Positions 2,131 through 8,041 of a DNA stretch of 38,987 nt are shown here, in pieces. The stretch covers positions 1 through 38,987 of the forward strand of contig JAKAJC010000013.1 in assembly GCA_021814005.1 (NCBI GenBank). Direction: 5' to 3'. The notes beneath the pieces are model-generated. The model ran no database searches, was not told the origin of the DNA, and was given only the letters and a program-made list of their open reading frames with translations. A program made the translations under genes and the position numbers. The number at the start of each line of letters is the position of its first letter. Position 1 is the stretch's first letter. Source of the DNA: Microcaldota archaeon (GTDB lineage Archaea > Micrarchaeota > Micrarchaeia > Anstonellales > Anstonellaceae).

Positions 2131-2179
2131 TGAAACCATATATGATAATTGGTGAAACACTGGTTTCCAAAACTGAAAC
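2131..2179. promoter_or_regulatory. Candidate operator triad A: three TGAAAC direct repeats at 2131, 2153 and 2174 (22 and 21 bp spacing); the middle repeat sits in the dyad GAAAC-ACTG-GTTTC
   Basis: Read directly: TGAAACcatatatgataattggTGAAACactggtttccaaaacTGAAAC, between the divergent dsbA (2078, -) and wHTH gene (2254, +). Same architecture as 10078-10126. Confidence 0.75.
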
Positions 2180-2253: not shown

Positions 2254-2745
2254 ATGATTCAGGGCAACAAAAAGACCTTAATCGGGTTCTTGGCTTTTTC
2301 GGCGTTCATGCTCATCGTCGCGTATGCGCCGCAGACGCTGATGCGCAACGCGCCGCTTGCCTGCACCGACTCATGCCCCAGCGACAGGTATATTTCGGAA
2401 TTGCTGGCCTATCTCCCTGCGCTTATCATCCTCGGCTTTGCTTTCGGAATCGGGCTTTCCTACCTTTACTTTGAGCGCAGGATTGCGCTGCCTGAAAGCA
2501 GGATTGACCGGAAGAAGGCGTTCCTTGCCATGCTTGAGCCGACCGAATCCAAGCTTGTCGGAAAGATTGCCGATAGGGGAGGGGAGGCGCTCCAGGCCGA
2601 GCTGTCAAGGATTGAGGGAGTCGGCAAGGTGAAGGCGCACCGTGTGATAGACCGCCTTGTCGCAAGGGGGCTGCTTGAGAAGGAAGCGGCAGGAAAGACG
2701 AATTCTGTGAGGATAAAGAAGGAAATAATGGATGCCATCAAATGA
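2254..2745 (+). CDS. Membrane-anchored winged-helix transcriptional regulator (two TM helices, extracytoplasmic loop with CTDSC, cytosolic wHTH)
   Basis: GFLAFSAFMLIVAY TM1, loop LACTDSCPSD, LPALIILGFAFGIGLSYLYF TM2, C-terminal LSRIEGVGKVKAHRVIDRLVARGLLEKEAAGKTNSV wHTH. Paralogous to the 10156 ORF. Confidence 0.75.
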   Translation: MIQGNKKTLIGFLAFSAFMLIVAYAPQTLMRNAPLACTDSCPSDRYISELLAYLPALIILGFAFGIGLSYLYFERRIALPESRIDRKKAFLAMLEPTESKLVGKIADRGGEALQAELSRIEGVGKVKAHRVIDRLVARGLLEKEAAGKTNSVRIKKEIMDAIK

Positions 2746-4044: not shown

Positions 4045-4329
4045 ATGATGTTACTCAAGAAGCTGCTCTACTGGCTTATCGCCGGCTCGCGCGGTGGCCA
4101 CAACCGGGCGAGAATAATCATGTTCATCTCCAAGCATCCGGCCAATGCCAAGCGCATCGCGGACGGGCTGGAGATAGATTACAAGACCGCCCTGCACCAT
4201 CTGGGAGTGCTTCTAAAGCACGGCCTGCTGGATTGCATCGGGGAAGGATACGGCAAGGCATATGCGCTGTCGCCAGAGATGGAGGGGATGCTGGATGAAG
4301 TCCGCAGATTTCTCGAAAAAGCACGCTGA
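4045..4329 (+). CDS. ArsR-like winged-helix transcriptional regulator
   Basis: RARIIMFISKHPANAKRIADGLEIDYKTALHHLGVLLKHGLLDCIGEGYGKAYALSPEM; TATA-like GATTTAAAT about 27 bp upstream of ATG. Confidence 0.75.
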   Translation: MMLLKKLLYWLIAGSRGGHNRARIIMFISKHPANAKRIADGLEIDYKTALHHLGVLLKHGLLDCIGEGYGKAYALSPEMEGMLDEVRRFLEKAR

Positions 4330-4747
4330 TGGGGATGAGCAGGGGCCCGGGCTCCTGCCGCCAGCGGTCGCCATAGTGCTCGTGCTTCTCACCATCGCCA
4401 TTCTATGGGCCACGTCATCCAATCCCTCACCGAGCGGATATACCGGTTGTCTGGCGGCTCTTGGCCCGACAGCCCCGACCGGCTTGGCCAACGCGCTTGG
4501 CGTTGTCAACATTCTCCTGCTGGCCTGGCTCATCATGCAGTATGTGCAGATGTATCTCCGCGTGCGCAGCGAATTCACGCTTGGCCTGATTGTCCTGGCT
4601 TATGTGCTGATGGCCCACGCGCTGATGAGCAATTCGGCTCTCTTCCCGAATCTAGCACTGCACAGCGCCTACGGCTGGTCCATCATCCTGCAGAACCTGC
4701 TCACCACGGCGGCGGCAGGAGTGCTGCTCTACCTCAATTCGAGATAG
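4295..4747 (+). CDS. Multi-TM protein of unknown function, overlapping the wHTH gene
   Basis: ATG at 4295 lies inside the end of the regulator ORF (stop 4329); MKSADFSKKHADGDEQGPGLLPPAVAIVLVLLTIAILWA... several hydrophobic segments. Confidence 0.6.
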   Translation: MKSADFSKKHADGDEQGPGLLPPAVAIVLVLLTIAILWATSSNPSPSGYTGCLAALGPTAPTGLANALGVVNILLLAWLIMQYVQMYLRVRSEFTLGLIVLAYVLMAHALMSNSALFPNLALHSAYGWSIILQNLLTTAAAGVLLYLNSR

Positions 4748-4903: not shown

Positions 4904-5701
4904 TCATCCGCCCCATTCGTTCGGGCCCAGCGGAGTGAAGTGCATGTCGTCCAGAGCGTTGCCTGCAGGCGCAAGCACGCCCACCAGATAGACGTTGCGG
5001 CCGAAGAAGCCGCGGATTGTGTCGCCGGGTTTTGCGAACAGCTTCTCTTTGCGCATCACCTTGGCCTCGTCAGAGCCCACTATGAGCGGGTAGTATTTGT
5101 CACCCGCCAGATTTTGGATGGAATAGTCGGACATCTTGCCTTCGGCCAGCTTGAGCGCAGGCAGGGTGCGGTTGTCGCCGGTCGCGAGAGTGTAGAAAAG
5201 CTTGGGGCTTTTTTCGGTCGAGAGTTTGATATAGGCGACATCCTGCTTTTCTCCGAGCGAATTGAACTGGGCCGCGTCAAGCAGATGGAAACGGTCGACA
5301 ACTGTTCCGGTCTTGGACAGCACGCCGCCCACGCTCACTTTGAGGCCCTCGAAGTCTTTGAGGGAATCTCCGATTTTGGAATATTCGCCCTCTTTTTTCA
5401 TGAGCGCGCCCTCCATGGAGCCGAGCACCACCGAGCCGTCTTCGGGAATCGGCTGGCCCTCGGCCGCAGTGAAGCGGCTCATGGCGTTGTTGCGCGCGTG
5501 CGCGATGAGTTGCGGCTCGCCCGAATCTGTCCAGACGACCTTGAGGTGGAGGCCGTCGAACACTTCCAGCGGCGCGCCCGCCCCGCCCATTGCGCTGCCC
5601 CCCTTGTTGAGCGTGAAATAACCCACGCTGCCCAAGAGAAGGACGAAAACTGCGATGAAAACGCCGCTCTTGTTGGCTGACAGAAATTGCATAATGTCCA
5701 T
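4904..5701 (-). CDS. Secreted/anchored protein of unknown function, last gene of the copper operon
   Basis: N-terminal TM (GVFIAVFVLLLGSVGYFTL), SD AGGTGA upstream, two internally similar segments (VGGVLSKTGTVVDRFHLL / LVGVLAPAGNALDDMHFT). Confidence 0.7.
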   Translation of the reverse strand: MDIMQFLSANKSGVFIAVFVLLLGSVGYFTLNKGGSAMGGAGAPLEVFDGLHLKVVWTDSGEPQLIAHARNNAMSRFTAAEGQPIPEDGSVVLGSMEGALMKKEGEYSKIGDSLKDFEGLKVSVGGVLSKTGTVVDRFHLLDAAQFNSLGEKQDVAYIKLSTEKSPKLFYTLATGDNRTLPALKLAEGKMSDYSIQNLAGDKYYPLIVGSDEAKVMRKEKLFAKPGDTIRGFFGRNVYLVGVLAPAGNALDDMHFTPLGPNEWGG

Positions 5702-5735: not shown

Positions 5736-7958
5736 TCAAAGCTTTGTCCACCTCAGCGTCAGCGAGTTGACGACCACCGACACTGAAGAGAGCGCCATTG
5801 CCCCGCCCGCGATGACGGGCGAGAGCAGCCAGCCGGTGAATGGGTAGAGCACGGCTGCCGCGATGGGGATGCCCAGCACATTGTAGATGAGCGCCCAGAA
5901 GAAATTCTGCTTGATTTTGGAGATGGTGGCGCGCCCGAGCTTGATTGCACGGGACACGTCCACCGTGTCGCTCCTCATCAGCACAACGTCTCCGCAGTCT
6001 ATGGCGATGTCGCTGCCCGAGCCCATGGCAATGCCCAAATCGGCCTGCGCAAGCGCCGGCGCATCGTTTATGCCGTCGCCAACCATGGCCACCTTGAGCC
6101 CGCGGCTTTGCAGCTTCTGCACCTCGTCAGCCTTGTCTGACGGCAGCACTTCAGCCAGCACATTTTCTATTCCGGCCTGCTGCGCAATGGCCTGCGCAGT
6201 GCGCTTGTTGTCGCCGGTAATCATCCAGACCTGCAAACCGAGTTTTTTCAGCTCGGCCACCGCCTGCGGGGAGGTTTCTTTGAGGGTGTCGGCCACTGCG
6301 ACAAGGCCGACAGGAGTCTTGTTGACCAGAAGAACCATCGAGGTCTTGCCTTCGGATTCAAGTGCCTGCATTTTGGATGTTGCTTCGGCCGCAAGGCTTC
6401 CGCCGGCAGACTTCATCATTTTCAAATTGCCGAATGAAACCGCCTTGTTGCCGATTTTGCCCACAACGCCATGGCCAGGCACGGCCTTGAATGATTTGAC
6501 TGCCATGAATTTGGCATTGCGTGCCTTTGCCTCTTCCACAATGGCGTCGGCGATGGGGTGCTCCGAACTTTTCTCTATGGAGGCGGCAAGGGAAAGCACG
6601 TGCGCCTCGTCGAATTTCGGGCTGAGCGAGATTATGTTGGTCACTTTCGGCTTGCCTTGTGTAAGAGTGCCGGTCTTGTCAAAGACAACTGCTCTCACCT
6701 TGTGTGTTCCCTCCAGCGCCTCGGCATTTTTGAAAAGAATGCCTTTTTGCGCCCCGAGGCCTGTGCCCACCATGATGGAAGTGGGCGTGGCGAGGCCCAG
6801 CGCGCAGGGACAGGCAATCACCAGCACCGACACGGCCGCGAGGAGGGCGAATGAGAACAGGTGGGCTGGAATGAGAGCTGCCGGAATAAATGAAGCCGCT
6901 ATTCCAGATGTCAGAAGCCAGTACCAGCCTGCAAATGAGAGGATGGCGATGGCAATGACGATTGGCACGAATACTGCGCTGATTTGGTCTGCCAATCTTT
7001 GGATAGGCGCGCGGCTGCCCTGCGCCTCCTCCACCAGCTTGACAATCTGGGAGAGGGCGGTGTCTGCGCCCACTTTCTCGGCGCGCACATAAAGCACGCC
7101 GTGCTTGTTGATTGTGGCGCCAAATGCCTTGCTGCCTTTCATTTTCTCGACCGGAATGCTTTCTCCGGTGAGCATGGCCTCGTCAACCGAGGAATGGCCG
7201 TCCACTACGGTGCCGTCTGTCGGGATTTTCTCGCCCGGCTTGATTACCATGATGTCGCCAAGCACGATGTCGGCTGCATTGACAATCATTTCCTTGCCGC
7301 CCCGAACAACTGTTGCCTGCTTTGGCGCCAAATCCATCAGCTTGCGGATTGCTTCCGACGCCTTGCCCTTGACAATGGCCTCAAGGTATTTGCCCAAAAT
7401 GACCAGGGTGATCAGGGTGGCGCCGACCTCGAAGTACTGCTCCTCCACAAAGCCGAAGAGGGCTGCAAGACTGTAGAGATAGGCGGCCGTGGTGCCGATG
7501 GCTATGAGGGTGTCCATTGATGCAGTCTTGTTTCGCGCGGAGGAGATGGCTCCCTGATAGAAGGAAAGGCCAACAATGAACTGCACTGGAGTGGCAAGCA
7601 GGAAGAGGAACAGGAGGCGGTTGGGGAAGTCCATGAGGAACATGCCCAACGGGATGGTTGGGATGGAGAGAATCGTGCCTATGATGAGTTTTGTCTTGAG
7701 CTCGGAAATCTCGGCAGCCCGAAGTTTCTTCTCGCGTTCAGGGTCGACGCCTATGCTGGCAACATAGCCAAGAGATTTTACTTTGGCTGTGAGGGTCGCC
7801 TCATCTGCCGCCGACTCGTCATATTCCACCAGCGCGCGGCCGGCGGCGTAATTGACGTTCGCCATCTTCACGCCCGGCACTTTTGAGAGGCCGCGCGTAA
7901 TCAGAGTGGCGCAAGATGCGCAGTGCATTCCGGAAATGGTTAAATCAACTTTTTTCAT
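5736..7958 (-). CDS. copA: Copper-translocating P1B-type ATPase
   Basis: HMA motif GMHCASC, TGES, CPCALGLATP, DKTGTLT, SEHPIA, GDGINDAPAL. Start chosen at MKKVDLTISGMHCASC. Confidence 0.95.
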   Translation of the reverse strand: MKKVDLTISGMHCASCATLITRGLSKVPGVKMANVNYAAGRALVEYDESAADEATLTAKVKSLGYVASIGVDPEREKKLRAAEISELKTKLIIGTILSIPTIPLGMFLMDFPNRLLFLFLLATPVQFIVGLSFYQGAISSARNKTASMDTLIAIGTTAAYLYSLAALFGFVEEQYFEVGATLITLVILGKYLEAIVKGKASEAIRKLMDLAPKQATVVRGGKEMIVNAADIVLGDIMVIKPGEKIPTDGTVVDGHSSVDEAMLTGESIPVEKMKGSKAFGATINKHGVLYVRAEKVGADTALSQIVKLVEEAQGSRAPIQRLADQISAVFVPIVIAIAILSFAGWYWLLTSGIAASFIPAALIPAHLFSFALLAAVSVLVIACPCALGLATPTSIMVGTGLGAQKGILFKNAEALEGTHKVRAVVFDKTGTLTQGKPKVTNIISLSPKFDEAHVLSLAASIEKSSEHPIADAIVEEAKARNAKFMAVKSFKAVPGHGVVGKIGNKAVSFGNLKMMKSAGGSLAAEATSKMQALESEGKTSMVLLVNKTPVGLVAVADTLKETSPQAVAELKKLGLQVWMITGDNKRTAQAIAQQAGIENVLAEVLPSDKADEVQKLQSRGLKVAMVGDGINDAPALAQADLGIAMGSGSDIAIDCGDVVLMRSDTVDVSRAIKLGRATISKIKQNFFWALIYNVLGIPIAAAVLYPFTGWLLSPVIAGGAMALSSVSVVVNSLTLRWTKL

Positions 7959-8041
7959 TTTTTTCACCAAACCCCTATCATTGGCCTGTTGGCCAGCCAT
8001 ACTCTCGCTCGAAGAAAAAATACAAGGAAGATATTAGCTTA

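Follow-up and report, generated by a model that had tools for sequence, protein, structure and literature searches.

The gene at positions 2254 to 2745 of the window (the whole stretch of 38,987 nucleotides, contig C10 within a 1.2-Mb genome) probably encodes a membrane-resident one-component regulator of extracytoplasmic copper or thiol stress, which would control the dsbA operon divergent from it. The family of this regulator, its topology, its operator with the operator code and its gene neighbourhood are supported by computation. We infer that the ligand is copper or a copper-driven disulfide, and that the protein acts somewhat more probably as a repressor than as an activator. An earlier note on this DNA had missed both the copper context and the operator, which consists of direct TGAAACM repeats.

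The reading frame (plus strand, ATG start) encodes 163 amino acids, and the family HMM and the tree assign the product to type A, CxxxC form. It presents two hydrophobic spans and a C-terminal winged helix (wHTH), as the earlier note had claimed from the same frame. Hydropathy and charge bias give the spans, and the structural model and fold matches give the winged helix, so the proposed transmembrane one-component architecture is borne out. Transmembrane helix 1 covers residues 8–26 (2275–2331) and is also a helix in the AlphaFold (AF2) model. Transmembrane helix 2 covers residues 50–68 (2401–2457). Between the two lies the loop QTLMRNAPLACTDSCPSDRYISE. This extracytoplasmic segment has about 23 residues (27–49, positions 2332–2400) and holds C37 and C41, spaced C-x3-C in the motif CTDSC (2362–2376). 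The winged helix extends over approximately residues 94–155 (2533–2718), with the recognition-helix motif GKVKAHR at residues 124–130. All these features are on the plus strand.

Among 78 relatives, the mean count of lysines plus arginines is 2.06 ahead of the first helix, 0.82 within the loop and 3.90 over the 20 amino acids that follow the second helix. Because this count is low in the loop and higher before and after the spans, the positive-inside rule supports an N-in/C-in topology. The loop with the CTDSC motif then lies outside, where it had been placed before.

The AlphaFold model shows block pLDDT values of about 77–84 across residues 91–160; its alignment was thin (6 rows, from the window and related loci), and the membrane part has low confidence. 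Foldseek returned matches to MarR/ArsR proteins. According to the model, the C-terminus is a winged helix with a MarR/ArsR-like fold. The Pfam scores in this region are weak. DUF7343 (PF24034) gives 21.9 bits and MarR_2 (PF12802) gives 23.6 bits, below their gathering cut-offs of 27.6 and 27, so the protein belongs to neither family by Pfam. A search of solved structures by sequence found weak wHTH matches, plus chance matches to transmembrane segments. The Pfam search found no TRASH domain in the regulator, whose C-terminus is the wHTH.

Whole-genome searches for the family covered one phylum, with 295 Micrarchaeota genomes. With a single query sequence, 111 of them gave relatives, and a profile search gave matches in 156, wHTH-only matches included. 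From 76 fetched neighbourhoods we extracted 78 full-length members, too many for a chance reading frame. In the maximum-likelihood tree, clade A (Cys-type) has C-x5 or x6-C-x-H-E, most usually C-x5-C-x-H-E. Clade B (His-type) has [YFH]Hx[EHQ]x[MI] where the second transmembrane helix begins, and includes a paralogue in the window at 10168. Small dsbA-linked forms carry SCPLG or CGVC. Clade C is distant and has mostly C-x5 or x6-CP[HM]. The extracytoplasmic cysteine pair is conserved in the regulator's own subfamily, as had been proposed: in the columns between the spans of the 19-member type A alignment, both cysteines (C37 and C41) are invariant (19/19), and prolines occur at the membrane edges. 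The window protein and two copies from genome G253 (CxxxC, without His-Glu) are nested in clade A, beside the C-x6-C form of G242. By this placement, the CxxxC, dsbA-only form of the window derives from within the copper-linked Cys clade.

Two side observations concern the tree. The G253 copies (L038 and L039) are window-type loci on separate contigs of one MAG, which match the query at 94% and 96% identity; they would be either a strain mixture or a recent duplication. Clade C (L070, L073, L076, L106, L107, L109–L116, L118) also adjoins CopA. It lacks the TGAAACM triple, and some of its members have everted TGAAACTAGTTTCA-type sites.

Copper ATPases are frequent in the gene neighbourhoods. 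A TIGR01511 copper ATPase lies within 7 kb of at least 45 of the 79 members, and is divergent from 38; we estimate about one such adjacency by chance, with genomes of about 1.1 Mb and one or two such genes each. The neighbour table was built on similarity to the proteins of the window and its relatives, not on Pfam. It gives too few partners, since many contigs end close by. Cys-type members are divergent from an HMA-DsbD_2 protein and CopA. His-type members are divergent from a cupredoxin, an HMA-TM protein and CopA, the same as the window paralogue. HMA-DsbD adjacency separates the types, with 15/20 in type A versus 0/38 in type B.

In the window, the paralogue (10168–10746, plus strand, possibly starting at 10156) is of type B, with the motif TRLKAHR. 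It has no cysteines, which confirms the earlier description. The minus-strand cluster facing it contains CopA, a copper-type P1B ATPase (5736–8000; TIGR01511, 620.5 bits, cut-off 397), a cupredoxin-like protein (8042–8680; PF13473) and an HMA domain with a membrane protein (8686–9741; PF00403). This copA is 3 kb off on the other side of the regulator. The regulator's own operon is dsbA without copA: two dsbA-like genes on the minus strand (PF13462/PF01323), the first at 1200–2078 and the second at 216–1133, face the regulator, in agreement with the divergence noted before.

The idea that the cysteine pair tracks neighbouring dsbA, which the earlier note had set as a check, fails. Members adjoining dsbA number 14; nine have the pair, two have a single cysteine and three have none. 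Most members with the pair have a copper ATPase cluster nearby and no dsbA. The neighbour counts (Fisher p = 0.15) lead us to reject the pair as a dsbA marker. In the close relatives G123 and G184, the divergent copper operon begins with dsbA, followed by FtrD-like, HMA-DsbD and CopA genes. Since dsbA opens the copper operon in these two genomes, the dsbA pair of the window may be the remnant of a similar operon.

The sensor had been proposed to respond to disulfide or metal status. For the family as a whole, the metal half of this proposal is better supported. We retain disulfide as an option for the dsbA-only branch, because this branch lacks C-x-H-E and faces only dsbA. A pure disulfide or redox sensor is the alternative that survives best, with a rather low probability. 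The disulfide of the CxxxC pair would follow the redox state outside and tune dsbA, with the regulator possibly a client of DsbA, and copper would be irrelevant to this branch. In addition to the features of the window branch, the partners of type A fit this explanation: they include DsbD_2 proteins with an invariant HCxxMC and a further cysteine, and also dsbA (L040, L042, L043). The CGVC form in G253 (L058) likewise faces dsbA. However, the family overall accompanies copper ATPases. The dsbA-linked members without cysteines (L062, L069, L072) and the two with a single one speak against a common disulfide signal. Besides, His-type members have the same kind of operator and cannot sense by disulfide.

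The signal could also be another soft metal (Ag, Zn, Cd or Hg) or general envelope stress instead of copper, which we consider improbable. Specificities overlap among HMA and P1B families, and the CopA of the window also scores above the cut-off of the cadmium model TIGR01512. Nevertheless, its score is 620 bits with the copper model TIGR01511 against 412 with TIGR01512, relatives likewise score higher for copper, and cupredoxins are copper proteins.

The regulator and the dsbA operon share one promoter, and the predicted operator in it supports the direct action on DNA suggested previously. It consists of direct TGAAACM repeats that share the strand of the regulator and start 22 and 21 bp apart: TGAAACC at 2131–2137, TGAAACA at 2153–2159 and TGAAACC at 2174–2180. 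An inverted half-site, TGGTTTC (2161–2167), forms with repeat 3 an inverted repeat at 2161–2181. In the aligned promoters, an A/T-rich box sits between repeats 1 and 2 (2138–2152, minus strand in the window); it is likely the TATA region of the divergent operon. On the plus strand, the TATA-like box of the regulator gene, TTTAATAC (2225–2232), is 22–29 bp before the ATG, and the transcript is likely leaderless. The paralogue has its own triple operator (10078–10127, plus strand), with TGAAACA at 10078, 10100 and 10121.

This operator occurs mainly with the family. In 826 kb, 36 of the 38 triple repeats with at most one mismatch precede family genes and share one orientation, as do all the exact triples (16/16). 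In the 1.2-Mb genome of the window, the two regulator promoters (2131 and 10078) are the only places with a mismatch-free two-repeat core. Across the 295 genomes, the core TGAAACNAT-N13-TGAAACNAT has 36 occurrences, and its reversed control has none. Compared with the gene list of the profile search, 32 of the 36 stand immediately before a family gene. In G215, one of the other four precedes an unlinked FtrD-HMA-HMA/DsbD-CopA operon; the regulator of this genome is on a different contig and has no operator there. A second precedes a cupredoxin gene (G093). The third (G232, contig C62, locus L156, minus strand at 1383) is directly upstream of an apparent Bcp-type peroxiredoxin, which suggests a broader oxidative-stress regulon in that genome. 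The fourth is in G177.

A simpler description of the operator is an inverted repeat, GTTTC-N5-8-GAAAC, of which 32/40 sites in 540 kb are within 260 bp upstream of family genes. In the loci fetched later, the GTTTC/GAAAC repeat is present in 15/35, versus 18 of about 5000 random windows. The form GTTTC-N7-GAAAC was dropped as the operator, since the triple direct repeat agrees better with both subfamilies. Three more GTTTC-N5-9-GAAAC sites in the window's own genome (L078, L081, L082) were taken as chance by their open reading frames: two are inside coding sequence, and one, with a 5-bp spacer, is amid unrelated genes.

The half-sites differ between the types, being mostly TGAAACC in type A and TGAAACA in type B. 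Base 7 of the first repeat covaries with position 2 of the recognition-helix motif (GKV or (T/S/N/G)R), occupied by K125 in the window regulator. This residue is lysine in 21/21 members whose base 7 is C or T, and arginine in 34/34 members where it is A or G, a total agreement of 55/55. In the tree, three of the lysine members (L064, L068, L058) are placed on the His-type side, so the code is not merely the split between A and B, although independent changes are few, about two or three. This covariation argues that the winged helix of the family reads the TGAAACM repeats. The same code would explain how two paralogues are kept separate in one genome. That another DNA-binding protein, such as a general envelope-stress factor, occupies the repeats and the regulator is merely beside them is very improbable: shared promoters can hold the sites of other proteins, but the sites co-occur with this family genome-wide (32/36), the covariation includes the lysine members on the His-type side (L064, L068, L058), and the half-sites are paralogue-specific inside one genome.

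For the copper/thiol regulator, we propose the following mechanism. Two helices would anchor the protein in the membrane, and the outer loop with the conserved cysteine pair (next to His-Glu in most relatives) would be the sensor. The cytoplasmic winged helix would bind TGAAACC direct repeats in the shared promoter, at a spacing of about two helical turns. Its target would be the two dsbA-like genes in the window branch, and HMA-DsbD and CopA, sometimes with dsbA, in relatives. The regulator would sit on the promoter until copper binds or oxidises the cysteine pair, resulting in its release or a conformational change. Because the likely TATA region of the operon has repeats 1 and 2 on either side, this occupation would mean repression, relieved by the signal. 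The arrangement is also compatible with activation from repeats 2 and 3, upstream of the TATA region of the dsbA operon. The signal of the window protein may differ from that of its copper-linked relatives, since its operon is dsbA and not copA, and its loop lacks His-Glu.

A more general reading has, in our judgment, a little less than an even chance. Here, a dedicated family of regulators embedded in the membrane of Micrarchaeota would monitor copper or thiols on the outer side and, by binding phased TGAAACM repeats, control both copper export and the thiol chemistry of the envelope. In a single genome, Cys and His paralogues would be separated by the K-C/R-A code. The window branch would have shifted from copper export to disulfide exchange, losing C-x-H-E and keeping the operator.

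If this is true, a two-span sensor-regulator of about 165 amino acids couples the outside directly to DNA. The predicted operator and its specificity code could be checked in vitro on synthetic DNA, with no need to culture the host. The family would also be a test case for how phased sites are reached by a factor tethered to the membrane, and for how paralogues in a small genome avoid cross-talk. To our knowledge, metal sensing in DPANN archaea is nearly untested.

Some known systems resemble this regulator in part. ToxR/CadC-type regulators of bacteria are anchored in the membrane, sense outside and bind DNA. They have an N-terminal OmpR-type wHTH, a single span and a large outer domain. In contrast, the wHTH of the window regulator is C-terminal and MarR/DUF7343-like, and follows two spans with a loop of some 23 residues. 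Transmembrane transcription regulators (TTRs) are reported to be widespread among bacteria and archaea (Demey et al. 2023, PMC10269533). The window protein, predicted to regulate transcription from the membrane, is alike in joining a DNA-binding domain and transmembrane segments in one protein. However, TTRs are an architecture class and not a family, and the text of that work does not use the words copper or metal and is not known to describe a comparable operator. ArnR and ArnR1 of Sulfolobus acidocaldarius are archaeal membrane-bound one-component regulators (PMC6396743), with an N-terminal HTH before the transmembrane region (PMC13286277). They are phosphorylated and have archaellum and pili targets, whereas in the window regulator two spans precede the wHTH, and the genes it faces are copper/dsb genes.

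The copper regulator characterised in archaea, CopR of Pyrococcus furiosus, does not reside in the membrane. It is divergent from copA and acts on the shared promoter; it has an N-terminal HTH and a C-terminal TRASH metal domain, forms an octamer and recognizes the motif TTNNCAWWWTGNNAA, with activation proposed when bound upstream of the BRE (PMC7830388). The family is alike in its divergence from copper ATPases (38 members), the window gene itself being divergent from dsbA. It is unlike CopR in its two spans, absence of TRASH and TGAAACM repeats. Scs (suppressor of copper sensitivity) proteins tie DsbD/isomerase-type thiol chemistry to copper resistance (PMC8900818, PMC5524982). The HMA-DsbD, DsbA and CopA proteins here present a similar thiol–copper link by role, and Scs proteins are bacterial envelope enzymes and not regulators. 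The family is TTR by architecture and CopR-like in gene setting, but it is not CopR, nor DUF7343 or MarR_2 by Pfam cut-offs. In the literature searched, which covered few subscription journals, neither the family nor its copper link or operator is described. Among the papers listed on Micrarchaeota and copper, none deals with such a regulator by title and abstract, and no paper on DUF7343 was found.

Finally, the copper/dsb region of the window presents other features. An inverted repeat, GTTTCAATGGTTAGAAAC (10150–10174), spans the upstream ATG of the paralogue at 10156 and ends at the ATG at 10168, so the latter is the likelier start; the repeat may serve autoregulation of the paralogue. The protein at 8686–9741 (minus strand) consists of an HMA domain fused to a membrane region that is rich in Gly and Met and falls in no Pfam family. 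It has relatives in L060–L104, occurs together with CopA and His-type regulators across Micrarchaeota, and may act as a copper transporter or chaperone. A conserved membrane-anchored protein without a Pfam family adjoins CopA (4904–5701, minus strand; 6041–6811 in L155). It has relatives in the CopA operons of G215 and G196, and is a candidate component of the copper operon. Likewise, on the plus strand, an ORF for an ArsR/HTH_20-type soluble protein and a membrane-protein ORF overlap (4045–4329 and 4262–4747), with relatives in L039 and L042. The soluble protein is a second regulator within this region.
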